A stretch of DNA of 33,933 nt from positions 1 through 33,933 of the forward strand of contig JACMPO010000030.1 in the NCBI GenBank assembly GCA_014377455.1. Reading direction: 5' to 3'. This stretch comes from Flavobacterium sp. (lineage in GTDB: Bacteria; Bacteroidota; Bacteroidia; Flavobacteriales; Flavobacteriaceae). The position numbers and the translations under genes were made by a program. Shown here piece by piece: positions 6,186-33,933 of this stretch. The notes below the pieces were generated by a model. That model searched no databases. It saw nothing but the letters and a program-made list of their open reading frames with translations, and was not told the DNA's origin. Every line of letters starts with the position of its first letter. The first letter of the stretch is position 1.

Positions 6186-6245
6186 TTTGAAATTGTTATT
6201 TTAGTTAATTACAAATGCTATTTAGCCCTGATTGAATGGAATAAC

Positions 6246-6266
6246 ATCCCGATTTTTCTTCGGGAT
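6246..6266 (-). terminator. Weak hairpin after hemB
   Basis: A perfect 7-bp stem (ATCCCGA / TCGGGAT) with a 7-base loop lies between hemB and the cytochrome gene. On the minus strand it is not followed by a strong T run, so it may be a weak terminator, an RNA-processing hairpin, or part of a dispersed repeat. Confidence 0.3.
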
Positions 6267-6346
6267 TTATGAAAGGAAAGCAGGAAAAAGGTTTTTTAAA
6301 ATGCGCAAGCCATTCGCTCCTTATTTCGACTAAGCTCAAGATAACA

Positions 6347-7342: not shown

Positions 7343-7359
7343 ATTATTTTATTTTTTTG

Positions 7360-7422
7360 AACCATTAAGGTATTGAGGTTCATTAAGAGTTTCGCTTAAT
7401 TTTTCTTAATACCTTAATGGTT
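7360..7422. repeat. Palindromic intergenic element, copy A
   Basis: A 63-bp element bounded by a perfect 15-bp inverted repeat (AACCATTAAGGTATT at 7360-7374 and its complement at 7408-7422). It fills most of the hemF-hemB spacer. Its reverse complement is closely similar over its whole length to copy B (11485-11546), so the two are the same element in opposite orientation. It would fold as a hairpin in the heme mRNA. Confidence 0.85.
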
Positions 7423-7425
7423 TGA

Positions 7426-8328: not shown

Positions 8329-8404
8329 ATTTAAATAATTGGTTTTTGGTTGTTGGTAGATGTCAAATCGGAGTGACCCACAACTATCAACTTTAAACCA
8401 ACAA

Positions 8405-9427
8405 CTATTTATATTCCTTCACAGCATCCACAAATGCCTTCGCATGATCTACAGGAATATTTGGCAAAATTCCGTGACCAAGGTTTACTATATAATTGTC
8501 TTTTCCGAATTCGTTTATCATTTCGTGCACCATTTTTTTGATGGTTGAAATTGGCGACAATAATCGTGATGGATCAAAATTTCCTTGTAATGTGATTTTT
8601 CCGCCTGTTAAATAACGAGCATTACTTGCTGAACATGTCCAATCTACACCAAGTGCTGATGCTTTTGATTTAGCCATGTCGTTTAAAGCAAACCAACATC
8701 CTTTTCCGAAAACAATTACTTTGGTGTCTTCTGAAAGTGCCTCAACGATTTGGTTGATGTATTTCCATGAAAATTCTTGATAATCGATTGGTGCTAACAT
8801 GCCGCCCCAAGAATCGAAAATCTGAACAGCATTACAACCCGCTTTTACTTTTTCTTTTAAATATAAAATAGTTGTATCAGTGATTTTTTGCAGTAAAGTA
8901 TGCGCTGCAACTGGATTTGAAAAACAAAAGCCTTTCGCCGTATCAAAACTTTTTGACCCTTTTCCTTCTACACAATAGCAAAAAATTGTCCAAGGCGAAC
9001 CTGCAAAACCAATAAGCGGAACCTCATCGTTCAACATTTCTTTGGTTAATTTTATGGCATCAAAAACGTAACCTAAAGTTTCATGAACATCGGGAACAAT
9101 TACTTGATCTACTTGTTCCATTGTGCGAATAGGATTTGGAATAATGGGTCCCAAATTGTCTTTCAATTCAACGTGAATTCCCATTGCTCTGGGAACAACT
9201 AAAATATCTGAAAATAAAATAGCTGCATCTGGTTTTACAATTCTAATGGGTTGCACCGTTATTTCTGCTGCTAGTTCTGGTGTTTCGCAACGTGTGAAAA
9301 AGTCGTATTTGTCACGCAAAGCTCTGAATTCTGGTAAATATCTTCCAGCTTGTCGCATCATCCATACTGGTGGACGTTCTACGGTTTCGTTATTTAATGC
9401 TCTTAAAAATAGGTCGTTTTTAATCAT
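8405..9427 (-). CDS. hemE: Uroporphyrinogen decarboxylase HemE
   Basis: Removes four carboxyl groups from uroporphyrinogen III to give coproporphyrinogen III. It has 340 residues, the usual length. The N-terminal signature [17 protein letters not shown] carries the conserved substrate-binding arginines, followed by [16 protein letters not shown] (conserved Asp) and [11 protein letters not shown]. The [11 protein letters not shown] motif is at the C-terminus. Its ATG is one base downstream of the stop codon of the T9SS esterase gene, so translation of the two is probably coupled. Confidence 0.97.
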
Positions 9428-9428
9428 T

Positions 9429-10787
9429 TTATAATATTATTTTTTTATTTAAAGTAGCATTCAAAATAAAATAAATGCCTTTTTGAAATTCTTTATTTAA
9501 TGGATTGTTTCCATTTTTAAGAGTCATTTTGTCAACCAATTTCCCATCTGTCGAAAAGATGTAAACGTCTTGATTATCTTTTAATCCTTCAACAAAAAGT
9601 TGGTTATTACTGGTTTTGAAAATGTTAATTTTATCGTTTATAAATGAATTGTTCGCCAACGTAACATTTTGAAAAAGCCATAAATAAGCTGCTGCAAATT
9701 CGCCTCTCCAATAACCTTCGGAATGTGTGCCGTAACTATCGTATTTTGTTTGAGTATTTGAAGTAGCTAATTGCTTGTTTTGAAAAGCATTTTTGACATC
9801 GTTACAGTCTGGAACCATAGTGGAATCTTCATTTGTGCCTGCTACGAAATACATTCTGGAGTTGGAATAATTTTGAGAATTTGTATTTATATAATTTAAT
9901 AATTGGGGTTTTGCAAACCAATAAGCCGAGCTAAAATTGCCCACTTTTTGAAAAATATTTGGATATTTTGCTCCAATATAAGATGAAATTAATGCACCCA
10001 TTGAACTTCCTACAAGAGCATTATATTGCGCTTCAGGTTTGGTTCTGTAATTCAAATCGATATAAGGTTTTAATGTTTCGGCTACAAATTGTGCATACAA
10101 ATCGCCTTGTCCGCCACCATAACTTGGGTTGTTCCATGGAGAATATTCGTTTAGTCTTTCTGATCCACCGTTGTCAATTCCGACAACAATAGCACCATAA
10201 TTTCCTTGATTAAAAAGCGAATTCAAGGTTTCATCTACTTGCCATTCGCCAGAAAATGATGTGGCTACGTCAAATAAATTTTGTCCGTCTTGCATATACA
10301 AAACAGGGTAGGTTTTAGTTATAGTGTTATAATCTGGTGGAAGATAAAGCCAAATTTTGCGGTTGCGGTTGAGTTGTGGCATAAAAAAAGACGTGCTCAA
10401 AATGGAAACATTACTTGCTGCGGTACTATTTGTTCCACCCAAATCTTCCCAACTTTGAACCGTTAAATTAATTGTTTGCGGATTTCCTGTAAAACTAAAA
10501 CTTCGGTTTGTTAAATATCCGCCATTTGCATTGCCTTCAACCGTTGCCCAACTTCCGCGAGTAAATTTATATTCAACAGTTCCAGTACCTTCTGGAATTA
10601 CAATTTGATATTGACCATTTCCTAAATCTTGCAGTTGATTAGCCGTTGCATTCCAACTATTTAAACTTGATGGCATAAATATCGTAGCACTTTGTGGCGT
10701 ATTGGTCGGAATTTGAGTGATTTTCAAAGTGACTTGGGCAAAAATCACATTTTCAAAGAGTAAGACTAAATAAATAAATTTTTTCAT
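9429..10787 (-). CDS. Secreted esterase-fold hydrolase with T9SS sorting domain
   Basis: A 452-residue protein with four parts. A signal peptide is at residues 1-17 (ending FAQ). An N-terminal beta-sandwich at about 20-115 resembles glycogen- or starch-binding/E-set modules ([18 protein letters not shown]). An esterase-D-like alpha/beta hydrolase domain spans about 130-375, with nucleophile S262 in GSSMG and a likely His355 (YGTHSEGYW); the acid is probably in the TNEDS segment. A C-terminal type IX sorting domain lies at about 380-452 ([18 protein letters not shown]). It is therefore exported by the T9SS to the cell surface or medium. It starts 16 bases after hemD and ends 1 base before hemE, although its role has no obvious link to heme. 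Substrate is unknown; carbohydrate-linked esters or siderophores are possible. Confidence 0.88.
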
Positions 10788-10803
10788 TTTTTTCTAATTA
10801 AAT

Positions 10804-11472
10804 TTAAGAAAATTCTATTATAACGTCCTGAATTACATAATCAACCGATGGTTTGTCTGCAATTATGATATTCATTATTTTTTTATTTTCTAATGCTTCT
10901 GCTGTGGTTTCCCCTATACAAAAGCAAATTTCGTTTTTTATGGTATTCAATTTCAAATAACTTTCAACACCTGATGGACTAAAAAATAGAATTCCGTCTA
11001 ATTTTTCTTTAATTTTTTTAGATGTTATTTTGGTTTCATACACTTCAATTTCGTTGAACGTGATTTCGTTTTCTTTTAAAGCATTTGGTAACACATCTCG
11101 ACGTAAATTTCCGCTGAAAAAAGTAAAAGATTCACTCGAATAGACTAAGGATATTATCTCGGCCAAATCTGCTGCGTATCCTGTGTAAGCAACAACATTG
11201 AATCCGTTTTCAGTTAATAATTCTTTGGTTTTCATTCCAACAGAAAATACGTTTCTCGGTTTTAATTCTCCTACTTTTGGATGATTTAAGATACTTTGAA
11301 CGGCATTTTGACTTGTAAAAATTAAATTATCGTTAACCTTTGATAATTCAAAATTCTTGCTATTTGTTTCAATAAAATCTTCTTCAATTAGATTGATGTT
11401 GGCGTTTACTAATTCTTGCTTTTGATTTGGTAAAAGCTTTTTGGTTGATAATATGCTGATTCGTTTTGTCAT
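10804..11472 (-). CDS. hemD: Uroporphyrinogen-III synthase HemD
   Basis: Closes hydroxymethylbilane with inversion of ring D to give uroporphyrinogen III. It has 222 residues. HemD is poorly conserved, but the pattern fits: two alternating alpha/beta halves, NLIFTSQNAVQSIL near residue 50 (the conserved TSxNAV segment), a VGMKTKELL segment, FFSPSGVESYL (SPSxV segment) and CIGETTAEAL. It is placed after hemC, the standard position for hemD. The spacer to hemC holds palindromic element B. Confidence 0.93.
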   Translation of the reverse strand: MTKRISILSTKKLLPNQKQELVNANINLIEEDFIETNSKNFELSKVNDNLIFTSQNAVQSILNHPKVGELKPRNVFSVGMKTKELLTENGFNVVAYTGYAADLAEIISLVYSSESFTFFSGNLRRDVLPNALKENEITFNEIEVYETKITSKKIKEKLDGILFFSPSGVESYLKLNTIKNEICFCIGETTAEALENKKIMNIIIADKPSVDYVIQDVIIEFS

Positions 11473-11484
11473 TATTTCTTTTTA

Positions 11485-11546
11485 AACCATTAAGGAATTA
11501 AGAAAAATTAAGGACAAACTTAATGAAACTTAATACCTTAATGGTT
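11485..11546. repeat. Palindromic intergenic element, copy B
   Basis: A 62-bp element bounded by a 15-bp inverted repeat with one mismatch (left arm 11485-11499, right arm 11532-11546, ends AACCATTAAGG / CCTTAATGGTT). Read on the plus strand it matches the reverse complement of copy A at most positions, including an inner AAGAAAAATTAAG block. It fills most of the hemC-hemD spacer. Confidence 0.85.
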
Positions 11547-11550
11547 CAAT

Positions 11551-12477
11551 TTATTTCTTTAATTGTTTCTTTATTTCTACCATCAATTCGCTTCCGCCAT
11601 TATTTAAAATTTCTTGAGCGCAATTGAATCCCAATTTTTTCCATTCAGAAATGTCTACTTTTTTCTCGATTTCTAATTTTTGTTTTCCATCAATTGATAG
11701 CAAAACTCCTTTGAAATCTATAGTATCTTCCTTTTCATTATAGGTTGAAAGTGCTCCAATTGGTGCCGTGCATCCACCTTCTAATGTTTTTAAAAACTGT
11801 CGTTCTATATAAGTACAAATTTCGGTTTCAATATGATTTAATTGAGATAAAGCATCTAAAGTAAAGGCATCATCTGCCATTGCTACTACAACCATTGCGC
11901 CTTGTGCTGGTGCTGGAATCATCCAATCTAAGTTGATGTAATTCTCTGGTTTTAAGTTAATTCGTTCTAATCCTGCAGCTGCGAAAACAGCACCGTTCCA
12001 GTCATTATCTTGCAATTTTTGCATTCTCGTATTTACGTTTCCACGTAAATCTACCACTTCATGATTTGGATATTTATTCCACCACATGGCTTGACGACGC
12101 AAACTTCCTGTTGCGATAGTTCCGTTTGATTCTAAAAAATCTAAATTTCCTTTGTGAACCAAAATGTCTAAAATATTGGCTCGTTCCAAAACTGCTGCTT
12201 GCACAATCCCGATTGGAAGTGCGGTTGGAACGTCTTTCATAGAATGCACGGCAATATCAACTTGACGGTTAATCATTGCAATGTCTAAAGTTTTTGTGAA
12301 AATTCCAGTAATACCGAGTTCGTAAAGTGGCTTGTCGAGAATAATATCACCTTGCGATTTTACAGCAATAATTTCAGTTTTATAACCTAAATCGTTGAGT
12401 TGTTTTTGAACCGTGTGTGCTTGCCAAAGTGCTAATTCACTGTCACGAGTTCCTATACGTATTGTTTTATCAGACAT
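11551..12477 (-). CDS. hemC: Hydroxymethylbilane synthase (porphobilinogen deaminase) HemC
   Basis: Polymerises four porphobilinogens into hydroxymethylbilane. It has 308 residues, normal length. The start IRIGTRDSELALWQA is the classic HemC N-terminus. The catalytic Asp lies in the SMKDVP segment (79-84), the arginine-rich GSLRRQA is at about 124-130, and the dipyrromethane cofactor is attached at C236 in EGGCTAPIGA. It is the second gene of the cluster; the 135-base spacer from hemA carries the longer palindromic element C. Confidence 0.97.
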   Translation of the reverse strand: MSDKTIRIGTRDSELALWQAHTVQKQLNDLGYKTEIIAVKSQGDIILDKPLYELGITGIFTKTLDIAMINRQVDIAVHSMKDVPTALPIGIVQAAVLERANILDILVHKGNLDFLESNGTIATGSLRRQAMWWNKYPNHEVVDLRGNVNTRMQKLQDNDWNGAVFAAAGLERINLKPENYINLDWMIPAPAQGAMVVVAMADDAFTLDALSQLNHIETEICTYIERQFLKTLEGGCTAPIGALSTYNEKEDTIDFKGVLLSIDGKQKLEIEKKVDISEWKKLGFNCAQEILNNGGSELMVEIKKQLKK

Positions 12478-12488
12478 TTTTTTGTTTA

Positions 12489-12614
12489 AACCATTAAGAA
12501 CATTAAGTTACATTAAAGATTATTAATTATTAGTTTATGCTAAATTTTTAAGTTTATAAAAGAAATTCAAATTACACAATTGATATCTTAATTTCCTTCA
12601 TATTCTTAATGGTT
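12489..12614. repeat. Palindromic intergenic element, copy C (longer, divergent)
   Basis: A 126-bp stretch bounded by the same 10-bp termini as copies A and B (AACCATTAAG at 12489-12498, CTTAATGGTT at 12605-12614), with further ATTAAG units inside the left half. The interior is longer and does not align simply with A and B, so it may be a degenerate or expanded relative. The right terminus overlaps two bases of the hemA stop codon. Confidence 0.55.
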
Positions 12615-13872
12615 AAGAAAAAAATTTCTCTTGTTCCAATTGAAATACTTTTTCAATCCATTCAATTCCTTCTTCCATTGAATCGCCGTCTTTTAAATGG
12701 TTTACAAAGTGATTTGTGATTTTTTGAATGATTCTATTGCTGATTAATTCAGCTTGTTGTTCGTCAAAATTGGATAATTTTTTGCGTTGAAAATTCAATT
12801 CGCCGTCTTTAATGGAATTTAATTTTTCTTTCAAAGCGTGAATTGTTGGCGCAAATTTTCGATTTTTAGACCAAGTGATGAATTCTTCTTTTATTTCTTC
12901 AATAATTGCTTCGGCTTGCGGAATATGAAGTTTACGATTTTCTAGAGTTTCATCTGTAATTTGAGACAAATAATCCAAATGAATCAACGTTACGCCTTTA
13001 ATCTCTTGAACATTTTCATGAACGTTTTTCGGAATTGATAAATCTAAAATCAAAAGTGGTTTTTTCAAATTCAAAATCGCTTTATCAATAGTCGGATTTT
13101 GAGCGCCAGTTGCCACCACCACAACGTCGGCATTTTGTAATTCCAATTGTAAATCGGCGTAATCTTTAACCACTAAATCCAATTTATTTGCCAATTTTTC
13201 GGCTTTATCTTTGGTACGATTGATTAAAGTAATATGATCGTGTTTGGTATGTTTTACAAGGTTTTCGCAAGTATTTCTACCAATTTTTCCAGTTCCGAAA
13301 AGCAGAATGTTTTTATTAGAAACATCTTCAACATTTTTAATAATATATTGAACCGATGCAAACGAAACTGACGTTGCGCCTGAGGAAATTTCGGTATCGG
13401 TTTTGATTTTTTTGCTGGCTTGAATTACCGAATTTACCAAACGTTCCATGAAAGTATTAACTAATCCGTTAGATTTACTTTCGTTGAAAGCAATTTTTAT
13501 TTGACTAATAATTTCAAAATCGCCTAAAATTTGACTGTCTAAACCTGTTCCCACACGAAACATATGGTTGATAGCTTCGTGATTTTTATAGATGTAAGCT
13601 ACTTCTTGAAACTCTTGAACGCTTCCTTGACTGTTTTCGCAAAGTAGTTTTATTAACTCATACGGATGATTTGCAAAACCATAAATTTCGGTTCTGTTGC
13701 AGGTCGAAGTCACTATCAATGCTTTAATTCCTTCGGCTTCGGCTTGCATCAATAACGTTGACTTAGCTTTAGCATCCAGACTAAATTTTCCTCTCATAAC
13801 CGCATCGGCTTTTTTATAACTGATACCTAATGCGTAAAAAGAAGTATGTTTAGACATATTAAAATTTTCCAT
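12613..13872 (-). CDS. hemA: Glutamyl-tRNA reductase HemA
   Basis: NADPH-dependent reduction of Glu-tRNA(Glu) to glutamate-1-semialdehyde, the committed step of C5-pathway heme synthesis. I start it at the ATG at 13872 (419 residues). A longer reading from 13899 is open, but a -7 type box (TAATTTTG, 13897-13904) overlaps that codon, and family proteins start near MENF..SKH. The catalytic cysteine is C58 in STCNRTEIYG. The NADPH-binding loop is LLFGTGKIGRNTCENL, followed by a C-terminal dimerisation helix region. It is the first gene of the minus-strand heme cluster and divergent from the AraC-type regulator gene, with about 225 bases between the two starts. Confidence 0.95.
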   Translation of the reverse strand: MENFNMSKHTSFYALGISYKKADAVMRGKFSLDAKAKSTLLMQAEAEGIKALIVTSTCNRTEIYGFANHPYELIKLLCENSQGSVQEFQEVAYIYKNHEAINHMFRVGTGLDSQILGDFEIISQIKIAFNESKSNGLVNTFMERLVNSVIQASKKIKTDTEISSGATSVSFASVQYIIKNVEDVSNKNILLFGTGKIGRNTCENLVKHTKHDHITLINRTKDKAEKLANKLDLVVKDYADLQLELQNADVVVVATGAQNPTIDKAILNLKKPLLILDLSIPKNVHENVQEIKGVTLIHLDYLSQITDETLENRKLHIPQAEAIIEEIKEEFITWSKNRKFAPTIHALKEKLNSIKDGELNFQRKKLSNFDEQQAELISNRIIQKITNHFVNHLKDGDSMEEGIEWIEKVFQLEQEKFFS

Positions 13873-13896
13873 AAATACTTTTCTAAAAAAGTTAAA

Positions 13897-13904
13897 CAAA
13901 ATTA
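13897..13904 (-). promoter_or_regulatory. Putative -7 box of the hemA promoter
   Basis: On the minus strand TAATTTTG matches TAnnTTTG exactly and lies about 25 bases upstream of the chosen hemA ATG. No strong -33 TTG is seen. It supports the shorter hemA start. Confidence 0.4.
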
Positions 13905-13997
13905 TTGCTATCTATTTTATAAAAATAACGCTCTAAGAACTTTTTGTGTCGCTTTGAGATTTTTAATCCAAAAAGATTAATTCAACGTAAATTCTAT

Positions 13998-14005
13998 TAA
14001 ATTTG
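13998..14005 (+). promoter_or_regulatory. Putative -7 box for the AraC-type regulator gene
   Basis: On the plus strand TAAATTTG matches TAnnTTTG. It would give a leader of roughly 85 bases before the regulator ATG at 14098. The intergenic region is AT-rich, so a chance match is possible. Confidence 0.35.
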
Positions 14006-14097
14006 CAATGATAACAAGTGTTTCAAAAATTATTGTTTAGATTAATTCTAAATAACAATTTGTTCATTCCACTTCTTATTTACGAAAAAATATCGCT

Positions 14098-14964
14098 ATG
14101 GGTTCTCAAGAAGAGATAAAAATTGAAAATGATTTTATGTTGTTGCGATTTCAAAATGATGCAGGTGATAATTATCATGTAAAAAGACATGTAAACCAAG
14201 GGCTAATTCAGTTTCATTTTGGGATAAAAGGCAGGGCTAAATTTGTGTTTAACGAAGGGAATTATGCACTAGAATTGAGAGATGAAAAGTCATTATTATT
14301 TTATAATCCTCAAAAAGAATTACCTTTAAATATGGAATTAGCACCCAATTCGTGGATAATTTCTGTGCTAATTTCAATACAAAAATTCCACAGTTTATTT
14401 TCAAATAATGCGAATCATATTCCTTTTTTAAGTGAAGAAAACAAAGATCAAAAATATTATAAGGAGAACAACATAAGTCCATCGATGTCTATAGTTTTAA
14501 GCCAATTGTTTCATTATAATTTGAATCCTTCAATTAAAAACTTATATTACAAAGGAAAAGGATATGAACTTTTAAGTTTATTTTTTAATCGAACTGAAGA
14601 TTCAAATGTAGAACAATGTCCATTTTTAATTGATGATGAAAAATTAAAAATTAAAAAAGCCAAAGAGATTATAATTATAAATATGGCGGAACCACCAGGA
14701 TTAGAAGAACTTTCGGAGCAAGTAGGTTTGAGTTTGAAAAAATTAAAAATCGGTTTTAAACAGTTATATGGTGATACCGTTTACGGATTTTTATTTGATT
14801 ATAAAATGGATTATGCCCGTCAATTATTAGATTCTGGTTCTTATAACGTAAACGAAGTAGGTTTAAAAATTGGTTACAGCACCGGAAGCCATTTTATTGC
14901 CGCATTTAAGAAAAAATTTGCAACTACACCTAAAAAGTATTTGATGTCGAAAAACACAAATTAA
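14098..14964 (+). CDS. AraC-family (PchR-like) transcriptional regulator
   Basis: A 288-residue regulator. Residues about 1-110 look like a beta-rich sensing domain. The C-terminal DNA-binding domain has two helix-turn-helix units at about 200-222 (GLEELSEQVGLSLKKLKIGF) and 249-270 (NVNEVGLKIGYSTGSHFIAAF), ending KKKFATTPKKYL. The segment KLKIGFKQLYGDTVYGFLFDYKM is the type seen in PchR-like regulators, which respond to ferric siderophores. It is divergent from hemA and 106 bases upstream of hemH on the same strand, so control of iron or heme metabolism is the best inference. The ligand is unknown. Confidence 0.88.
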   Translation: MGSQEEIKIENDFMLLRFQNDAGDNYHVKRHVNQGLIQFHFGIKGRAKFVFNEGNYALELRDEKSLLFYNPQKELPLNMELAPNSWIISVLISIQKFHSLFSNNANHIPFLSEENKDQKYYKENNISPSMSIVLSQLFHYNLNPSIKNLYYKGKGYELLSLFFNRTEDSNVEQCPFLIDDEKLKIKKAKEIIIINMAEPPGLEELSEQVGLSLKKLKIGFKQLYGDTVYGFLFDYKMDYARQLLDSGSYNVNEVGLKIGYSTGSHFIAAFKKKFATTPKKYLMSKNTN

Positions 14965-15070
14965 TTATTTAATTAAAATAATTAATGAATATCAAACAAG
15001 AATTAAAAAATTGTTAATCAAAATAATCAAAAAAGAAGTTTAATTACTTTTATAAAAAAAATTGCACACC

Positions 15071-16087
15071 ATGAAAGGAGTATTGTTAGTAAATTTAGGT
15101 TCGCCAGAAAGTCCAACTGCTAAGGATGTAAAACCTTATTTAGACGAATTTTTAATGGATAAATATGTAATCGACGTTCCTTTTTTACTTCGTGCATTAC
15201 TGGTTCGTGGCGTTATTTTGCAAACAAGACCTAAAAAGTCTGCCGAGGCTTATGCAAGAATTTGGACTGATGAAGGTTCACCATTAATTGTTATTTCCAA
15301 AAAAATGCATGAAAAAGTTAAAAATATGGTAGATATTCCTGTTGCTTTGGCGATGCGTTATGGAACAATTACAATACTTAAAGGACTACAAGAATTGCAC
15401 GATAAAGGTGTAAATGAAGTACTGTTATTTCCACTTTATCCGCAACACGCAATGGCATCTACAACTTCAATAGTTGCCTTAGCAGAAGAGTTGAGAGCAA
15501 AGCATTTCCCGGAAATGAAATTTAAAATAGTTCCTGCATTTTACAACAAACCCGATTATGTTCAAGCATTAGCTAACTCAATTAAGAAATACTTGGATAC
15601 TTTTGAATACGATCATTTACTGTTTTCTTACCACGGAATTCCAAAAAGACATATTCGAAAAACAGACATTACCAAGTCGCACTGTAAAATGGATTTTTCA
15701 TGCTGTCATACCGCTTCGCCTGCACATGAATTTTGTTATAGTCATCAATGTTATGAAACTACAAAACAAGTAGTAAAATTACTGGGAATTCCTGAAGGAA
15801 AATACAGTCAAACATTTCAGTCTCGTTTAGCCGGAGATAAGTGGCTCACTCCTTATACCGATGTTGAAGTTAATAAAATGCCAGAAAAAGGAATCAAGAA
15901 ATTGGCGGTTGTGACACCAGCTTTCGTATCTGACTGCTTAGAAACTTTAGAAGAAATTGCAATGGAGGCCAACCACGAATTTAAAGTGCATGGTGGGTTA
16001 GATTTTATGGCAATTCCCTGTATGAATGATGGTGATGAATGGTGTGGTGTAGTTGCAAATTGGATAAAAGATTATCAAAAAAATTAA
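15071..16087 (+). CDS. hemH: Ferrochelatase HemH
   Basis: Inserts Fe2+ into protoporphyrin IX. I start it at the ATG at 15071 (MKGVLLVNLGSPESPT, 338 residues); an upstream in-frame TTG would add only three residues. The catalytic His is H188 in LLFSYHGIPKRHI and the conserved acidic segment is SDCLETLEEI near 288-297. A cysteine-rich stretch (C205, C211, C212, C222, C227) lies in the middle of the protein, where some bacterial ferrochelatases bind a [2Fe-2S] cluster. hemH is transcribed away from the hemA-hemB cluster and downstream of the AraC-type regulator gene, and it converges on a glycosyltransferase gene. Confidence 0.97.
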   Translation: MKGVLLVNLGSPESPTAKDVKPYLDEFLMDKYVIDVPFLLRALLVRGVILQTRPKKSAEAYARIWTDEGSPLIVISKKMHEKVKNMVDIPVALAMRYGTITILKGLQELHDKGVNEVLLFPLYPQHAMASTTSIVALAEELRAKHFPEMKFKIVPAFYNKPDYVQALANSIKKYLDTFEYDHLLFSYHGIPKRHIRKTDITKSHCKMDFSCCHTASPAHEFCYSHQCYETTKQVVKLLGIPEGKYSQTFQSRLAGDKWLTPYTDVEVNKMPEKGIKKLAVVTPAFVSDCLETLEEIAMEANHEFKVHGGLDFMAIPCMNDGDEWCGVVANWIKDYQKN

Positions 16088-18040: not shown

Positions 18041-18886
18041 TTATTCATTTTTTAAGATATAAATGTGTGATGAATATTCTAAATTTTGTGTTCCTTTCCA
18101 GTTAGACTTTAATCCGATATAAAAAGCTTTTATGAAATTCATTTTTCCTGTTTTATATTTTTCAGATAATAAACTAACATAAAAACTGTCAAATTTCATT
18201 GGAAGCACTTTCACCAACTTTAATTTTTCAACTGCAAATAATTTTTTTATTGCTGTTTTGGAAAAATGCCAAAAATGAATTGGAACATCAAAAGCAGCCC
18301 AAAATTCTCCATAATGTTTGGCATCGAAAGAATTAAAATTGGGAACTGCAATAATTATTGTACCGTCAGGTTTTAGTAATCTTTTTAATTTTGCTATTTG
18401 TTTTTCTAAATCTGGAACATGTTCTAAAACATGCCACATTGTGATTATGTCAAACGAATTATTCTCAAGTTCAGACAAATTATTTACAAAAGCAACTCCT
18501 TTTTTTTGGGCAATTTGTTTTGCTTTATAACTTGGTTCAACTCCAATAATTTCCCATCCATCGCTTTTTGCAACCGAAAGAAAATCTCCAACTCCAGCAC
18601 CAATATCTAAAATCCTACCTTTTGGCGATTGTGAATTAATTAATTTCAACTTGTTTTTTAATGCAATAGATTTAACAAATTGATACATTTTTTCGAACAA
18701 CGATTTGTTTCCATCCGTATGCGAGATATAGATTTCACTCTCGTAATATTTAGGGAGTAATTCAAAACTTGGTTGTGGATGCGTAATTAACATGTCTAGA
18801 TTATTATCATAAAAAAGCTCAAAAGTTTCTTGTGATACAGAATGATCTTTAACTTTTAAAAAAGGTTTTAAATTTGAAATATCCAT
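18041..18886 (-). CDS. Class I SAM-dependent methyltransferase
   Basis: A 281-residue protein from the ATG at 18886. The SAM-binding glycine loop ILDIGAGVG is at 92-100, the acidic residue ending strand 2 is in IIGVEPS (113-119), and the post-I region is DIITMWHVLEHVPD, the pattern of the UbiE/UbiG-like Methyltransf_11/23 group with HVLEH. The frame is open back to 18976, but that extension translates the parS-like palindrome at 18921-18936 as FHVKQ and looks unlike protein, so the internal ATG is preferred. N-terminal residues 1-50 resemble the short leader found in Bacteroidota sugar or lipid methyltransferases. Substrate unknown. It probably ends the mnmG-ybeY-DUF4175 transcription unit. 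Confidence 0.88.
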   Translation of the reverse strand: MDISNLKPFLKVKDHSVSQETFELFYDNNLDMLITHPQPSFELLPKYYESEIYISHTDGNKSLFEKMYQFVKSIALKNKLKLINSQSPKGRILDIGAGVGDFLSVAKSDGWEIIGVEPSYKAKQIAQKKGVAFVNNLSELENNSFDIITMWHVLEHVPDLEKQIAKLKRLLKPDGTIIIAVPNFNSFDAKHYGEFWAAFDVPIHFWHFSKTAIKKLFAVEKLKLVKVLPMKFDSFYVSLLSEKYKTGKMNFIKAFYIGLKSNWKGTQNLEYSSHIYILKNE

Positions 18887-18920
18887 TAAATGATGTTGTT
18901 TTATTGATGTTGGGAAAGCT

Positions 18921-18936
18921 TGTTTCACGTGGAACA
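18921..18936. promoter_or_regulatory. parS-like ParB-binding site 1
   Basis: TGTTTCACGTGGAACA, a 16-bp near-palindrome differing from the perfect consensus TGTTTCACGTGAAACA at one base. It lies in the spacer between mnmG and the methyltransferase start. The reverse strand reads TGTTCCACGTGAAACA, a form known among chromosomal parS sites. Confidence 0.9.
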
Positions 18937-18987
18937 AATTAAAATCAGATTTTATATAATTAATGTTTGACAACAAAAAAATTAATA

Positions 18988-20856
18988 TTATCGTCCCATA
19001 TAAATTAATAAAACTGAAATATCACTTGGTGAAACACCGCTAATTCTTGATGCTTGCGAAATAGTAATGGGTCTTATTTTAGTTAATTTTTGCTTTGCTT
19101 CTATCGACATTGATTTAATTTTCTCGTAATCAAAGTCTTCCGGGATTTTTACATGTTCCAGTCTAGTTAATTTTTCAGCATTATTTCGTTCTTTTTCGAT
19201 ATAACCTGAATATTTTACTTGAATTTCAGCTTGCTCTAAAATTTCTCGATCAAAATTATTCTCCTCGACATAATTTTTGACCTTTTCAAATTTCAAAAAA
19301 TCATCTAAATTAACCTGTGGTCTTGAAAATATTTTAAACATTTTATCCGATTGTGTAATTTGAGAACTTTCCTTTGATTCTAAAATAGGATTTGCCTCAT
19401 CTAAAGTTACACTTGTTTCTTTAAAAAATTCGACCAGTTTATGTGATGATGCAAACTTTTTTTCCATTCGATTCATTCTATTTTGAGATGCTAAACCTAT
19501 AGCATAAGCTTTTGGGGTTAGTCTTTCATCTGCGTTATCTTGCCTAAGCAACGTTCTGTATTCAGCTCTTGAAGTAAACATTCTGTAAGGTTCTTCTGTT
19601 CCTTTAGTAATTAAATCGTCTATCAAAACACCAATATATGCCTCGTCACGTTTCAAAATCATAGAATCTTTTTCCTGTACTTTCAAAGCTGCATTTATAC
19701 CAGCCATCATTCCTTGAGATGCAGCTTCTTCGTAACCCGTGGTTCCATTAATTTGACCAGCAAAATACAATCCATCTACTAGTTTAGTTTCTAGAGTATG
19801 TTTTAATTGCGTTGGCGGAAAATAATCATATTCAATAGCGTAACCAGGTCTGAAGAATTTTACTTTTTCAAAGCCTTCTACCTGACGCAATGCTTTAAAT
19901 TGAATGTCTTCGGGTAACGATGTTGAGAAACCGTTTACGTAAACCTCACAAGTATTCCAACCTTCTGGCTCAACAAACAATTGATGTCTTTCTTTATCTG
20001 CAAACCGATTTATTTTATCCTCTATTGATGGACAATATCTTGGGCCAAGAGATTTAATTCTTCCATTAAACATCGGAGATCGATCAAAACCTTCTCTCAA
20101 AATATCATGAACATTTATTGAAGTATAAGTCATATGACATAAACGTTGATGGGTTAACGGTTTAGTAACGTCAGAATATGAAAATTTATCTGGATTAATA
20201 TCTCCAGCTTCCTCTTTCATTTTAGAAAAATCTAATGATCTACCGTCAACTCTAGGTGGCGTTCCAGTTTTCATCCTACCAGCTTCAAAACCTGCGTTAA
20301 CTAAATCTTCTGTTATTCCATAAGCTGCACTCTCGCCTGCTCTTCCTCCACCAAATTGTTTTTCGCCGATGTGTATTAAACCATTTAGAAAAGTACCATT
20401 TGTTAAAACTACCGATTTTGCTTTTATTTCTAACCCTAATGATGTTTTAATTCCATCTACTTTTCCGTTTTTAATTATTAACCCACTTACCATTTCTTGA
20501 TAGAAATCCAAATTTTGAGTTGCTTCTAACATCAATCTCCATTCCTCTGAAAACCTCATTCTATCAGATTGTACTCGAGGAGACCACATAGCAGGACCTT
20601 TAGATTTATTCAGCATTTTAAATTGAATAGCAGTTCTATCGGACACAATTCCGGAGTAACCGCCAAGTGCATCTATTTCACGAACAATTTGTCCTTTAGC
20701 AATGCCACCCATTGCTGGATTGCATGACATTTGTGCGATATTTTGCAAACTCATAGTAACAAGCAGTGTTGAGCAACCTAAGTTAGCCGATGCTGCAGCA
20801 GCTTCACAACCTGCATGGCCCGCACCTACAATTATTACATCATAAACATTAAACAT
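18988..20856 (-). CDS. mnmG: tRNA uridine 5-carboxymethylaminomethyl modification enzyme MnmG (GidA)
   Basis: The FAD-dependent partner of MnmE, which makes the cmnm5U34 wobble modification. It has 622 residues, standard length. The FAD-binding loop is VGAGHAGCEAA (10-20), followed by the hallmark SLQNIAQMSCNPAMGGIAKGQ with the catalytic-region Cys, then PSIEDKINRF and GQINGTTGYEEAASQG. The C-terminal domain (IRPITISQASRISGVSPSDISVLLIYMGR) binds tRNA and MnmE. It starts 54 bases after ybeY, and that spacer holds parS-like site 2. In many bacteria gidA is close to oriC, which fits the parS sites, but neither dnaA nor mnmE is in the window. Confidence 0.98.
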   Translation of the reverse strand: MFNVYDVIIVGAGHAGCEAAAASANLGCSTLLVTMSLQNIAQMSCNPAMGGIAKGQIVREIDALGGYSGIVSDRTAIQFKMLNKSKGPAMWSPRVQSDRMRFSEEWRLMLEATQNLDFYQEMVSGLIIKNGKVDGIKTSLGLEIKAKSVVLTNGTFLNGLIHIGEKQFGGGRAGESAAYGITEDLVNAGFEAGRMKTGTPPRVDGRSLDFSKMKEEAGDINPDKFSYSDVTKPLTHQRLCHMTYTSINVHDILREGFDRSPMFNGRIKSLGPRYCPSIEDKINRFADKERHQLFVEPEGWNTCEVYVNGFSTSLPEDIQFKALRQVEGFEKVKFFRPGYAIEYDYFPPTQLKHTLETKLVDGLYFAGQINGTTGYEEAASQGMMAGINAALKVQEKDSMILKRDEAYIGVLIDDLITKGTEEPYRMFTSRAEYRTLLRQDNADERLTPKAYAIGLASQNRMNRMEKKFASSHKLVEFFKETSVTLDEANPILESKESSQITQSDKMFKIFSRPQVNLDDFLKFEKVKNYVEENNFDREILEQAEIQVKYSGYIEKERNNAEKLTRLEHVKIPEDFDYEKIKSMSIEAKQKLTKIRPITISQASRISGVSPSDISVLLIYMGR

Positions 20857-20875
20857 TTGGAATCATATTATGTTT

Positions 20876-20891
20876 GGTTCCACGTGGAACA
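20876..20891. promoter_or_regulatory. parS-like ParB-binding site 2
   Basis: A 14-bp perfect palindrome GTTCCACGTGGAAC at 20877-20890 within the 16-bp frame GGTTCCACGTGGAACA. It lies between ybeY and mnmG, 45 bases from site 3. It keeps the CACGTG core and the flanking TTC/GAA of parS. Confidence 0.85.
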
Positions 20892-20910
20892 CTAAAATTA
20901 AATAAGGGAT

Positions 20911-21336
20911 TTAGTCATGATGTTTCACGTGGAACATCAATATTTTTTCATCCTCTTTCATTCTCATTATTTCAATATCTGGGACAGACTTATCTTTAAA
21001 ACCGCAATAGTGCAAGATGCCGTGAGATAAAACTCTTAAAAGTTCGTCTTTAAAAGTGACATTAAATTCAATTGCATTTTCCGTAACTCTTTCAACAGAT
21101 ATAAACACATCACCATGGAGTTCATTTCCGATACTGTAATCAAAAGAAATAATATCTGTTAAAGTATCATGCTTTAAATATTTCTCATTTATATTTAAAA
21201 GATAATTATCATCACAAAAAACAAAGTTAATTTCACCTTCTTGTTTGTCTTCAGATAATATAACATCTGAAAGCCAAGAACTTATTTGAATTTCATCAGA
21301 GAGAATAAAATCTGTTTCGTAGTTAAAACTAATCAT
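20911..21336 (-). CDS. ybeY: Endoribonuclease YbeY
   Basis: A single-strand-specific RNase needed for 16S rRNA 3' maturation and ribosome quality control. It has 141 residues. The conserved DVISFDY-like segment is DIISFDYSIG (61-70), followed by GDVFIS. The metal motif is H105-GIL-H109-YCGFK-D115, where most YbeY proteins have a third His at the last position, so an Asp probably takes the ligand role here. The last eight residues MFHVKHHD are encoded by parS-like site 3, an unusual tail. Its start overlaps the DUF4175 stop by 8 bases, so the two are probably translationally coupled. Confidence 0.93.
   Translation of the reverse strand: MISFNYETDFILSDEIQISSWLSDVILSEDKQEGEINFVFCDDNYLLNINEKYLKHDTLTDIISFDYSIGNELHGDVFISVERVTENAIEFNVTFKDELLRVLSHGILHYCGFKDKSVPDIEIMRMKEDEKILMFHVKHHD
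20921..20936. promoter_or_regulatory. parS-like ParB-binding site 3, inside ybeY
   Basis: TGTTTCACGTGGAACA, identical to site 1, located within the last codons of ybeY. On the coding strand it reads TGTTCCACGTGAAACA and contributes residues FHVKH. Confidence 0.9.
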
Positions 21337-29961: not shown

Positions 29962-31644
29962 TCATTGCTCGATAACTTTTGCCCAAGTATCTCTTAAGCC
30001 AACTGTTTTATTAAAAACCAATTTTTTGGCTGAAGAATCTTTATCAACACAATAATATCCCAAGCGTTGAAATTGAAAACGATCGCCATCTTTTGCAGTA
30101 GCTAAACTTGGTTCTAAATATCCTTTAATTACTTCAAGCGAATTTGGATTGATGTATTCTTTAAAATCTACATCTTTATCGCCATCAGGATTTTCGTGTG
30201 TGAAAAGTCTGTCATACATGCGAACTTCGGCTTCTATTGCATGTTGAATAGAAACCCAATGAATTGTTCCTTTTACTTTTCTTTGACTAGCTTCTGTTCC
30301 GCTTCCGCTACGAGAATCTTCGTCATACGTACAATGAATTTCTGTGATATTTCCCTCAGAATCTTTTATAACACTTTCTCCTTTAATGATATAAGCGTTT
30401 TTCAAACGTACTTCTGTGCCTAAAGTCAAGCGAAAAAAATTTTTATTGGCTTCTTCCTGAAAATCTTCTCTTTCGATAAATAATTCTCTAGAAAATGGCA
30501 CTTGACGGAAACCTAAACTAGCATCTTCTTGACTATTTTCGGCTTCTAAACTTTCTTCTTTTCCTTCTGGATAATTTGTAATTACCAACTTCACCGGATT
30601 TAAAACTGCCATTACTCTAGGTGCTGTTTTATTTAAATCTTCACGAATACAGAATTCTAAAAGCGAAACATCAATCAAATTGGTTCGTTTTGCAATTCCG
30701 ATTGTATTAGCAAAATTCCGGATGGAAGCTGGAGTATAACCGCGTCTTCGCATTCCAGAAATAGTACTCATTCGAGGATCATCCCAAGATGTAACATGCT
30801 TTTCTTGAACTAATTGTAATAATTTCCGTTTAGAAACTACAGTGTGTGAAAGGTTTCTACGTGCAAATTCTCTTTGTTTTGGTCGAACTTTATTACTATT
30901 ATAAATCTGATTTAAAAACCAATCGTATAATTCTCTGTGAGGTAAAAATTCAAGTGTACAAAATGAATGTGAAATTTGTTCTAAATAGTCACTTTCTCCA
31001 TGAGCCCAGTCATACATTGGGTAAATACACCAATTATCACCTGTTCTGTGATGATGTGAGTGTAAAATTCGATACATAATTGGATCACGCATCAACATAT
31101 TATTGGCACCCATACTTATTTTGGCACGAAGAATATGTGTTCCGTTTGGAAATTCTCCGTTTTTCATTCGTTCAAATAAGTCTAAATTTTCTTCAACCGA
31201 GCGATTTCTGTAAGGCGAATCGGTTCCAGGAGTTGTAGGTGTTCCTTTTTGAATTGCCATTTCTTCGGAAGTTTGACTATCTACATAAGCCTTTCCGTTT
31301 TTGATAAATTCAACTGCCCAATCGTATAATTGTTGAAAATAATCCGATGCATAACATTCAGTATCCCATTGGTAACCAAGCCATTCTACATCTTTTTTTA
31401 TGGCATCAACAAATTCCTGTTCTTCTTTTGCAGGATTAGTATCATCAAAACGCAAATTTACTGGCGCATTATAATCTATTCCTAAACCAAAATTCAAACA
31501 AATAGCACTCGCATGACCAACGTGTAAATATCCGTTAGGTTCAGGCGGAAATCGAAAACGCAGTTTATCTTTAGATAATCCGTTTTTTAAATCTTCTTCA
31601 ATGATTTGTTCTATAAAATTTAAAGACTTTTCTTCTGTTGACAT
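29962..31644 (-). CDS. glnS: Glutamine--tRNA ligase GlnS
   Basis: Charges tRNA(Gln). It has 560 residues from the ATG at 31644 (MSTEEKSLNFIEQII); the frame continues to a TTG at 31665 but that leader is unlikely. HIGH motif: PPEPNGYLHVGHA (HVGH 41-44). LRFDDTNPAKEEQEFV is the GlnRS/GluRS class signature, the KMSKS-type loop is VVSKRKL, and the C-terminal anticodon-binding barrels follow (HWVSIQHAIEAEVRMYDRLF). A native GlnRS means tRNA(Gln) need not go through Gln amidation. About 193 AT-rich bases separate it from the YtxH unit. Confidence 0.97.
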   Translation of the reverse strand: MSTEEKSLNFIEQIIEEDLKNGLSKDKLRFRFPPEPNGYLHVGHASAICLNFGLGIDYNAPVNLRFDDTNPAKEEQEFVDAIKKDVEWLGYQWDTECYASDYFQQLYDWAVEFIKNGKAYVDSQTSEEMAIQKGTPTTPGTDSPYRNRSVEENLDLFERMKNGEFPNGTHILRAKISMGANNMLMRDPIMYRILHSHHHRTGDNWCIYPMYDWAHGESDYLEQISHSFCTLEFLPHRELYDWFLNQIYNSNKVRPKQREFARRNLSHTVVSKRKLLQLVQEKHVTSWDDPRMSTISGMRRRGYTPASIRNFANTIGIAKRTNLIDVSLLEFCIREDLNKTAPRVMAVLNPVKLVITNYPEGKEESLEAENSQEDASLGFRQVPFSRELFIEREDFQEEANKNFFRLTLGTEVRLKNAYIIKGESVIKDSEGNITEIHCTYDEDSRSGSGTEASQRKVKGTIHWVSIQHAIEAEVRMYDRLFTHENPDGDKDVDFKEYINPNSLEVIKGYLEPSLATAKDGDRFQFQRLGYYCVDKDSSAKKLVFNKTVGLRDTWAKVIEQ

Positions 31645-31761
31645 ATAATTTTGTAATTTTAACAAAGATAGAAAAAGACTTTATAAGTGAATAAGTTTAT
31701 AAGTTTATAAATGTTCTTTTTTATATTACCTCATAAACTCATAACTAAATACCTTTTTTAA

Positions 31762-32121
31762 ATGGGAACAATAAAATTACAAAATATCAGGATTTATTCT
31801 TATCATGGTTGTTTGCTAGAAGAATCGAAAATTGGTTCAGATTACCGTGTGGATTTAAAGGTCAAAACCGATTTAACGAAATCAGCACTATCTGATGACT
31901 TGAATGATACGGTTGATTATGTACTATTAAATAAAATTGTAGAAGAAGAAATGGCAATTCGATCTAAATTATTGGAACATGTGGCGAAACGAATTTTAGA
32001 AAGAATTTTTGCTGAAATTAACGTTGTTAACCTTGCAAAAGTAGCTGTTTCAAAACTAAATCCGCCTATTGGTGGTGATGTTAAAGCGGTTACTATAGTA
32101 ATGGAAAAGGTTAAAGCTTAA
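31762..32121 (+). CDS. folB: Dihydroneopterin aldolase FolB
   Basis: Converts 7,8-dihydroneopterin to 6-hydroxymethyl-7,8-dihydropterin and glycolaldehyde in folate synthesis. It has 119 residues, normal length. The N-terminal IKLQNIRIYSYHGCLLEESKIG contains the conserved YHG and Glu. SDDLNDTVDY is the family core, and KLNPPIGGDVKAVTIVMEK is the C-terminal strand with the conserved Lys. It is divergent from glnS, with about 117 bases between the starts. No other fol genes are near. Confidence 0.93.
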   Translation: MGTIKLQNIRIYSYHGCLLEESKIGSDYRVDLKVKTDLTKSALSDDLNDTVDYVLLNKIVEEEMAIRSKLLEHVAKRILERIFAEINVVNLAKVAVSKLNPPIGGDVKAVTIVMEKVKA

Positions 32122-32132
32122 TTTATAAATTG

Positions 32133-32255
32133 GTGATAATTTTAACAACAGATATTATTCGAGAAATTAGATCATATTTTTCACCCCTAATTAATATCGT
32201 TTTAATTTTGATGATTATTTACATAATTTTTAATAAAAGTAAATCAAAAAAGTAG
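32133..32255 (+). CDS. Possible small membrane peptide
   Basis: A 40-codon frame that starts at GTG (or TTG at 32130) 11 bases after the folB stop and ends at TAG (32253-32255). It reads as an amphipathic front (LTTDIIREIRSYFSP), one hydrophobic segment (LINIVLILMIIYIIF) and a basic tail NKSKSKK, which is a typical single-pass small protein with positive-inside charge. The region is very AT-rich, which favours hydrophobic codons by chance, and the start codon is not ATG. I therefore give it limited weight. Confidence 0.35.
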   Translation: MIILTTDIIREIRSYFSPLINIVLILMIIYIIFNKSKSKK

Positions 32256-32351
32256 ATATACTTAATAATAAAGTATTTCTACTTTTAAGAAGAACATTCT
32301 ACTTTAATCTAGGTTATTAAAAAGTTTAATTAATTTTTTCTAAAAATTTAA

Positions 32352-32380
32352 TAAAAAAAACCTTCAAGATATCTTGAAGG
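32352..32380 (-). terminator. Rho-independent terminator of tRNA-Cys
   Basis: A perfect 20-base palindrome (CCTTCAAGATATCTTGAAGG, 32361-32380) is followed on the minus strand by eight T. It lies 7 bases past the tRNA 3' end. Confidence 0.9.
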
Positions 32381-32387
32381 TTTTCAG

Positions 32388-32458
32388 AGGCATCGTCCGG
32401 ATTCGAACCGGAGTAGGAGCTTTTGCAGAGCCCAGCCTAGCCACTCGGCCACGACGCC
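32388..32458 (-). tRNA. tRNA-Cys (GCA)
   Basis: A 71-base cloverleaf on the minus strand. The acceptor stem GGCGTCG pairs with CGATGCC (one G-T). The D arm is GCCGAGTGGCTAGGC, the anticodon arm GGGCT-CTGCAAA-AGCTC with GCA at loop positions 34-36, and the T arm CCGGTTCGAATCCGG. The base after the acceptor stem is T, the U73 identity element of tRNA-Cys. CCA is not encoded, so it must be added by the CCA enzyme. A promoter lies just upstream and a terminator downstream. Confidence 0.96.
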
Positions 32459-32472
32459 ATTTCAGCGGAATG

Positions 32473-32501
32473 CAAATATATATAAAAGATTAATTAAACA
32501 A
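32473..32501 (-). promoter_or_regulatory. Promoter of tRNA-Cys
   Basis: Minus-strand TTG (32499-32501) is followed after 18 bases by TATATTTG (32473-32480), matching the Bacteroidota -33/-7 pattern. The box ends about 14 bases before the tRNA 5' end. This fits a dedicated tRNA promoter and the start of a monocistronic unit. Confidence 0.75.
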
Positions 32502-32514
32502 TAACTTGATTGTT

Positions 32515-33204
32515 TTATTTTTTAAATTCCTTAGCGAGCTTTTGCTTAATCATTTCTTTTTCGTTTGGGAAAAATCCTTGGCACATTAAAAATGTTCCAA
32601 AAATCATTAAAATAACACTGATAACTCTTTTTATTTTATAAATATTATAAGGAGTTAACCTCGATTTTAATTGTTTTGCAACATTTATTTTTAGTATATC
32701 AACAAGTACGTAAGTTATTATGATTGTGGATATAAATAATATAATTCTGTGGGTTTCCATATTTAGTTTTGGTCCAAAAACAATAATTATACCAAGCCAA
32801 AAACCTAAAACTCCAATATTTATAAAATTTAAAAGAAATCCTTTGAAAAAAAGTTCAATATAATTATTTACCTGAATCGTATCATCATCTATTACCTCTT
32901 CGCTTACTTTTTTAAAAGATTTTTTTTCTTTTATGAACGAAATAATCCCAAAACTTAACATAATTACACCTCCAAAAATAAATAGACTAGGATCGTTCTT
33001 AAGTTTTTGTAAGAGTTGATTTGTACTAAAATACGCTATTAAAATAAAAAAAACATCAGCAAAAACAACACCTAAATCAAAAGTCATTGCAGCACGAAAA
33101 CCTTTGGTAATTCCTGTTTCGAGCAGTATAAAAAAAACTGGTCCTATGGTAAATGAAAGTAAAATTCCCCAAGGAATAGCGGATAGAATATCGTTTATGT
33201 TCAA
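32515..33204 (-). CDS. LysE-family amino-acid exporter
   Basis: A 229-residue inner-membrane protein with about six hydrophobic segments. The N-terminal LSAIPWGILLSFTIGPVFFILLETGITKGFRAAMTFDLG carries the conserved GP and the G-x-R-AAM pattern of the LysE/RhtB family. The central acidic loop (KKVSEEVIDDDTIQ) and the C-terminal basic tail are cytoplasmic by charge. The start codon is TTG at 33204: no in-frame ATG lies nearby upstream, the next Met is residue 40, and a TATATTTG box lies 25 bases upstream. The export substrate is unknown. Confidence 0.87.
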   Translation of the reverse strand: MNINDILSAIPWGILLSFTIGPVFFILLETGITKGFRAAMTFDLGVVFADVFFILIAYFSTNQLLQKLKNDPSLFIFGGVIMLSFGIISFIKEKKSFKKVSEEVIDDDTIQVNNYIELFFKGFLLNFINIGVLGFWLGIIIVFGPKLNMETHRIILFISTIIITYVLVDILKINVAKQLKSRLTPYNIYKIKRVISVILMIFGTFLMCQGFFPNEKEMIKQKLAKEFKK

Positions 33205-33229
33205 GATTGTTTTATTTCAAGTTGATAAT

Positions 33230-33237
33230 CAAATATA
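33230..33237 (-). promoter_or_regulatory. Putative -7 box of the LysE-family gene
   Basis: Minus-strand TATATTTG, an exact TAnnTTTG match, lies about 25 bases upstream of the TTG start. A TTTG is found 24 bases further upstream, slightly beyond the usual spacing. Confidence 0.5.
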
Positions 33238-33312
33238 AAAAATAATTTATTATTTGCTATCAAACATTAATTAAAACTCTTGATTAACATTACCAAACCT
33301 GTAACTGCTCGA

Positions 33313-33933
33313 CTATTTGTTAACTTCCTCTATTGTTCCGCCAGCAATTATTTTTTGGCTTATTTGCTTTGGTTTACCAAATATAAGTATTTTTCCACCA
33401 GCGCGAACTTTTGCATCAACAAGGTTTGTAGCAAATATAAATGCTTCGCCACCAGCATTTGATGTTATGGTAGTTTGACTCGTAACCAACTTTTCAGCTT
33501 CAAAATTTCCATCAGAATTTACTAATATATCTTGATTGGAAGCCTTGCCTGATATTATTATTTTAGATCCATTAGATACCCTTGCAGTTAATTTATCTAC
33601 CATTAATTTGATATTAATTTCAGATCCTTCTTTTGCAATAATATCAAAAGATATGGATTTTATTACTGATTCACTAGCAATTCTTGAACCTTCATTGGCT
33701 TCAACAGCATTAATATCTTTATAATAAACCGTTGCTGAAACATTATCGCCAGACAATAATTTAGTTAATGGCATTCTAATTTTTAACTCTCCATTTTTAT
33801 TTACAAGTTCTACACTTTCAGAATCATTGCCTTCTAAAATAATTTTATTTTCATCTGATTTTATTAACAAAACATCTATCTGATCAAATGAAGTTACTTT
33901 ATTAAAATCCCCAACATTTTTCTCGGTTTGGGA
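33313..33933 (-). CDS. DUF2807 (head-GIN-like) beta-helix protein, 5' end cut by the window
   Basis: The frame is open from the stop at 33313 to the right edge, giving about 206 residues of the C-terminal part; the true start lies outside. The sequence shows the repeating short-strand pattern of DUF2807 proteins: VGDFNKVTSFDQIDVLL, then KNGELKIRMP, SATVYYKDINAVEANEGSRI, and IKLMVDKLTARVSNGSKIIISGKASNQDILVNSDGNFEAE. It ends KPKQISQKIIAGGTIEEVNK. The family is a predicted exported beta-helix of unknown function in Bacteroidota. The signal peptide, if any, is outside the window. Confidence 0.85.
   Translation of the reverse strand, partial: SQTEKNVGDFNKVTSFDQIDVLLIKSDENKIILEGNDSESVELVNKNGELKIRMPLTKLLSGDNVSATVYYKDINAVEANEGSRIASESVIKSISFDIIAKEGSEINIKLMVDKLTARVSNGSKIIISGKASNQDILVNSDGNFEAEKLVTSQTTITSNAGGEAFIFATNLVDAKVRAGGKILIFGKPKQISQKIIAGGTIEEVNK

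Follow-up and report, generated by a model that had tools for sequence, protein, structure and literature searches.

Three palindromes that match the parS consensus, which are its only exact copies in the assembled genome of a Flavobacterium sp., bracket the mnmG gene, and very probably they are ParB loading sites, i.e., the predicted centromere of the chromosome, situated near the likely replication origin. This predicted centromere is of the known parS kind, and its arrangement around mnmG, apart from both dnaA and parAB, is conserved across most of the Flavobacteriaceae. The window analysed is a whole contig (JACMPO010000030.1; C95) of 33,933 bases, from an assembly of 3,285,859 bases in 269 contigs that is 94.68% complete. 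The three sites and the genes of their neighbourhood are the following:

18041..18976, minus strand: SAM methyltransferase gene (PF13489, 98.4 bits), the downstream neighbour of mnmG; the open reading frame begins at a TTG, and the likely start is an ATG at about 18886
18921..18936 (core 18922-18935): parS-like site 1, TGTTTCACGTGGAACA, 52 bases beyond the mnmG stop codon and upstream of the likely ATG of the methyltransferase gene
18988..20856, minus strand: mnmG (gidA), bracketed by the sites (TIGR00136, 837.8 bits, above the cut-off)
20876..20891 (core 20877-20890): parS-like site 2, G-GTTCCACGTGGAAC-A, in the gap between ybeY and mnmG, 20 bases before the mnmG start codon
20911..21336, minus strand: ybeY, rRNA maturation RNase, the upstream neighbour of mnmG, which contains site 3 (TIGR00043, 89.3 bits, above the cut-off)
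20921..20936 (core 20922-20935): parS-like site 3, TGTTTCACGTGGAACA, within the last codons of ybeY, translated ...MFHVKHHD
29962..33870: glnS, folB, tRNA-Cys, LysE and DUF2807, at the contig end

Elsewhere in the window, a Flavo-1 RNA is found near hemB at positions 6220-6291 (RF01705, 49.3 bits; gathering threshold 42), and the haem genes hemB, hemF, hemE, a hemD-like gene (below the cut-off), hemC, hemA and hemH form one run at positions 6347-16087.

The 14-base core of the parS consensus, GTTYCACGTGRAAC, is matched exactly by all three sites. The core of site 2, GTTCCACGTGGAAC, is a perfect 14-base palindrome, and the two other sites are one base off a perfect palindrome. When up to three mismatches to GTTCCACGTGGAAC are allowed, the window contains exactly three matches, versus a mean of 0.40 in dinucleotide shuffles, none of 100 of which reached three. 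The sequence-only reading of this DNA had proposed three palindromes within 2 kb, at 18921, 20876 and 20921, and the pattern search and the shuffles confirm them. Its description of the sites as lying around mnmG was also right, with one in the end of ybeY, the next between ybeY and mnmG and the third beyond the stop codon of mnmG, and its remark that the window holds no further full copy extends to the rest of the assembly, where no exact match to GTTYCACGTGRAAC was found outside these three sites, all inside about 2 kb. As the assembly is 94.68% complete, another copy could lie in a gap. With one mismatch to GTTYCACGTGRAAC allowed, the whole assembly yields one more site (contig C11, GTTTCACGTTAAAC), which is at chance level because a backwards control pattern scores 3. 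Counted genome-wide, the sites are thus not scattered, all exact copies being in one spot. That three look-alike palindromes arose by chance in AT-rich DNA is suggested by the small number of sites and by nothing else; it is refuted by the shuffles, none of which reached three, and by the conservation across the family, and its probability is practically negligible.

Exact parS-type sites were found in 293 of the 299 Flavobacteriaceae genomes, while the backwards control gave 3 copies in all 299 together. Exactly two sites are present in 249 family genomes (hand count), and most of the pairs listed are about 1.9 kb apart, which is the length of mnmG. In 24 site-bearing family loci, one from each of 24 genomes picked from those listed with sites, mnmG is flanked on both sides in every case; the exceptions in distance were one upstream site 4.3 kb away and three downstream sites 427-476 bases away. 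In all 24, a relative of the methyltransferase gene follows mnmG at no more than 1.1 kb. Across the phylum, sites were found in 229 of 247 genomes. Among the 20 loci listed from other orders of the same class, mnmG stands no more than 1.5 kb from the site in 14 and is absent there in six, so that the link to mnmG is not universal.

A second survey employed named mnmG loci, namely the best 80 of at least 591 matches, 12 of the 80 being interrupted by a contig end. Sites are present on both sides of the gene in 67 of these loci, upstream only in 10 (three Tenacibaculum, two Polaribacter, Algoriphagus, Roseivirga, Fluviicola and two other MAGs), downstream only in 2, and on neither side in 1, a Capnocytophaga MAG; a downstream site is accordingly present in 69 of the best 80. 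In the same 80, the number of copies upstream of mnmG reaches seven in Flavobacterium loci, and in 37 loci an upstream site falls inside an open frame of 80 codons or more, translated FHV(E/K). Two contigs, filed as Limnohabitans and Chitinophaga MAGs (L230 and L231), encode MnmG proteins 82 and 85% identical to that of this Flavobacteriaceae window, which makes their labels or bins doubtful.

In the best 80 of the at least 591 matches, the site nearest to mnmG is found 7-142 bases before the gene (median 27) and 2-125 bases after it (median 12). Operators and terminators also occur at such distances, and the palindromes could be operators of an ordinary transcription factor for mnmG, ybeY and the methyltransferase gene, their likeness to parS being coincidental; the six of 20 same-class loci listed that have no mnmG beside the site may be counted on the same side. 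However, the core fits the parS consensus and the genome encodes a parS-type ParB, there is no other exact copy in the assembly while Flavobacterium loci have up to seven upstream copies, and a position within ybeY or beyond the 3' end of mnmG is ill suited to an operator. We consider such operators very unlikely, and favour the reading of the palindromes as ParB loading sites.

The genome itself encodes a parA-parB pair on contig C258. The parA product has CbiA/ParA and AAA_31 domains, and the parB product has ParB_N, HTH_ParB and ParB_C domains, with its best match among solved structures being a ParB family protein (7bnk, E value 1.1e-50). This ParB includes the sequence GERRLRA, which corresponds to GERRxRA, the motif of CTP-binding ParB proteins. 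It also aligns with the residue pair R173 and G201, the parS-type pair, where the Noc row has Q and R. In Caulobacter numbering, R173 and G201 are reported as conserved in ParB, with Q and R in their place in Noc (PMC7383237). The R and G pair was likewise found in the nine best family ParB proteins and in five family ParB proteins from genomes without an exact site, a count from which several non-family ParB proteins were left out, as the residue script returned no residue for them. The script found no match in two long proteins with a ParB domain (L122 and L123, of 599 and 616 residues), which are encoded 0.46 and 0.38 Mb from the sites.

No exact copy was found in 6 of the 299 family genomes and 18 of the 247 phylum genomes, and parB is nevertheless present in 23 of those 24. 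One-mismatch copies show no excess over the backwards control in these 24 genomes (106 versus 166, hand sums). Among the matches listed, seven of them (G329, G343, G377, G438, G466, G473 and G523) each have a pair of one-mismatch copies separated by 34-87 bases, a pattern suggestive of site drift. In two non-family genomes of the siteless group (L322 and L325), ParB has an A where family ParB proteins have G201, and the sites there may have changed together with the protein that reads them.

ParB binding, spreading and segregation are predicted to take place at these sites. A ParB dimer with CTP would close on a site, slide away as a clamp, and coat the ybeY-mnmG neighbourhood; the ParA ATPase would then pull each newly copied origin domain into a cell half. 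Canonical SMC was searched with the TIGR02168 profile. None of nine family genomes, the present one included, has a protein over the cut-off, with weak partial matches only, while 10 of 14 controls pass. Because of this failure in all nine genomes, the sites are not expected to load SMC in the way those of Bacillus do. For two other Bacteroidetes, PMC10197239 reports that no known condensin was found.

The position of the sites relative to dnaA and parB was measured by hand, as was that relative to rpiB (below). The distance from dnaA to the sites is large in all eight single-contig relatives with sites that were examined: 1.10 Mb in G059, 2.03 in G143, 1.38 in G154, 1.05 in G254, 0.75 in G352, 1.00 in G460, 1.04 in G494 and 1.59 in G125. 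The best parB lies about 0.7-2.0 Mb from the sites along the contig in eight genomes that have both on one contig. The sequence-only reading had dnaA, parA and parB as not in view, and they are indeed absent from the window; that wording falls short of the real separation, with dnaA 0.75-2.0 Mb away and the best parB at a distance of at least about 0.7 Mb. Since dnaA and parB lie so far from the sites, the position of dnaA is the wrong yardstick for the origin in Flavobacteriaceae, and GC skew is the right one. Five of the eight single-contig genomes (G143, G154, G254, G460 and G125) begin their numbering at dnaA, though 1.0-2.0 Mb separate it from their parS sites; skew was tested in three of these five and gave no support for dnaA as the origin.

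The remoteness of parAB and dnaA from the neighbourhood would also suit a fossil, an ancestral parS retained by its linkage to mnmG after the centromere role had been lost. But a 14-base palindrome in gaps that are mostly non-coding would be expected to decay, and yet 293 of the 299 family genomes retain at least one exact copy; moreover, ParB has no other exact copy to use in its own assembly. A fossil is highly improbable.

Uncorrected GC skew, taken over 20-kb samples, mostly reflected gene strand and was difficult to interpret, and it was replaced by skew at fourfold sites corrected for gene strand. Twenty stretches of 20 kb were taken from each of four complete relatives, and the origin was fitted with the terminus opposite. 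Relative to the sites, the best skew origin is at +3 kb in G154, 0 in G059, -51 kb in G143 and -173 kb in G254. The signed log-likelihood gain is 19.8, 53.3, 42.1 and 11.0, respectively, when the origin is placed at the sites, and -1.5, -6.0, -42.7 and -4.9 when it is placed at dnaA, i.e., the polarity of the skew is right at the sites and wrong at dnaA in all four genomes. The value of -42.7 indicates that dnaA of G143 lies near the skew terminus. In G254, the place 173 kb off beats the position of the sites by 9.3 log-likelihood units. With the terminus left free (40-kb grid), the best origin is 137 kb (G154), 40 kb (G059), 271 kb (G143) and 173 kb (G254) from the sites.

Fine mapping over adjoining stretches around the sites in two of these relatives placed the skew switch 8-20 kb from the sites. 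Within 3 log-likelihood units, the switch in G059 is at 370.1-379.4 kb, with the sites at 358.9-360.8 kb (about 9-20 kb apart), and that in G143 is at 2014.5-2022.0 kb, with the sites at 2030.1-2032.1 kb (about 8-18 kb apart). In both genomes it is located between the glnS orthologue and those of LysE-DUF2807. The earlier proposal that this segment belongs to an origin-proximal segregation domain is therefore supported, by orthologous sites 0, 3, 51 and 173 kb from the skew origin in the four relatives and 8-20 kb from it in the two that were finely mapped. For the window's own sites, closeness to the origin is supported by way of orthology, from the four complete relatives.

The most AT-rich 400-base window of both finely mapped stretches (0.8375 in 460 kb; 0.835 in 439 kb) falls in a gap that is orthologous between the two genomes, upstream of rpiB and towards rnr; rpiB and rnr were named by PF02502 and PF00773, respectively. 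The gap, with TTATTAACA-type motifs, is located as follows:

G059, contig C1, 388284-388830: AT-rich gap upstream of rpiB
G143, contig C1, 2022256-2022778: AT-rich gap upstream of rpiB
own genome, contig C123 (L217), 320-900: AT-rich gap upstream of rpiB

It is possible that this gap is oriC, and we treat it as a candidate. In G143 (2022.3-2022.8 kb) it adjoins the best skew interval, and in G059 (388.3-388.8 kb) it is about 9 kb outside of it. In the present genome, the gap, between rnr and rpiB, would by synteny follow closely after the right-hand end of the window.

The location of rpiB was surveyed in 30 genomes picked from those listed with sites. It lies 8-69 kb from the sites in all 23 family genomes that have both on one contig; in two more family genomes, the present one included, rpiB and the sites are on different contigs, and one has no rpiB match. 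In four non-family genomes of the same class, rpiB and the sites are 97 and 235 kb apart or lie on different contigs. The 650 bases upstream of rpiB were examined in 25 of 29 genomes, the four non-family ones being omitted and G130 contributing 441 bases only. In these, TTATTAACA is present in 19 of 25 family genomes, with 33 copies against a shuffle mean of 2.0 (200 shuffles, largest 6), the motif having been chosen post hoc on the same sequences, and the classic TTATCCACA is present in 7 of 25 against a shuffle mean of 0.1. The clusters of exact TTATTAACA are small, 2 copies in 600 bases, a density matched once elsewhere in each mapped stretch, and the motif was absent from six dnaA loci examined. 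The gap on contig C123 holds TTGTTAACAA- and TATCAACA-like copies, and not exact TTATTAACA. Neither the window (12 one-mismatch matches, 10.7 expected) nor either finely mapped stretch contains a cluster of DnaA boxes of the classic type, and the right-hand end of the window, where repeats and inverted repeats were looked for, showed nothing recognisably origin-like. Alternatively, TTATTAACA may be a control element of rpiB.

Taking these observations together, we speculate, at somewhat less than even chances, that the Flavobacteriaceae have a split origin. In such an arrangement, the centromere, with parS on either side of mnmG, would lie within some 10-70 kb of an oriC that occupies the AT-rich gap upstream of rpiB and is built on a divergent DnaA box, TTATTAACA, with dnaA and parAB each removed by the better part of a megabase or more, and with ParB working without canonical SMC.

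The sites can serve to locate the origin domain by sequence in a very large family of bacteria, whose finished genomes often start their numbering at dnaA. This bears on estimates of replication rate from read coverage and on chromosome engineering, and the gap upstream of rpiB is a concrete oriC candidate. It also raises the question of how ParB acts without canonical SMC.

That mnmG (gidA) is origin-linked has been described for many bacteria (PMC2099444). In the Flavobacteriaceae, Ori-Finder predictions have placed oriC at or beside mnmG in one genome each (PMC11278836, PMC12843772), so that an origin near mnmG has already been predicted for single members of the family. One of these two papers states that dnaA does not fit the GC skew, and PMC12843772 gives mnmG as the origin of another genome. 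The main text of neither mentions parS, the only match to 'pars' being 'parsimony'. What is added here to the Ori-Finder predictions is the parS pair, its conservation, and the nearby AT-rich gap by rpiB. We found no paper linking parS sites with mnmG or, judged by titles and the opening of abstracts, rpiB with oriC in this sense, and no fitting title among those listed for pairings of parS, gidA and Flavobacterium. The standard parS survey (Livny 2007) was outside the search and may already list flavobacterial sites near gidA; the sites themselves are not claimed as previously unreported.

Among known systems, the sites resemble those of Noc (NBS), in that both are related 16-base palindromes with a reader of the ParB fold, the NBS differing from parS at positions 1 and 6 (PMC7383237). 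The NBS are scattered (PMC4331003), whereas the sites described here are clustered. The residues of the reader speak against Noc binding sites, the ParB of this genome having R173 and G201 and not the Q and R of Noc. Another likeness is to Bacteroidetes of the mouse gut studied by Hi-C, in which clusters of parS mark the origin, and the origin does not always coincide with dnaA (PMC10197239); that paper concerns other families (Bacteroides, Muribaculum), and the text available from it contains no mnmG arrangement. As in the chromosomal ParABS systems of Bacillus subtilis, Caulobacter and Pseudomonas (PMC7333895), there are few palindromes of the parS consensus, they are clustered near the origin, and both ParA and ParB are encoded. 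Unlike in those systems, no canonical SMC passes the cut-off here, parAB and dnaA each lie about 0.7-2 Mb off, and the sites bracket mnmG across most of a family.
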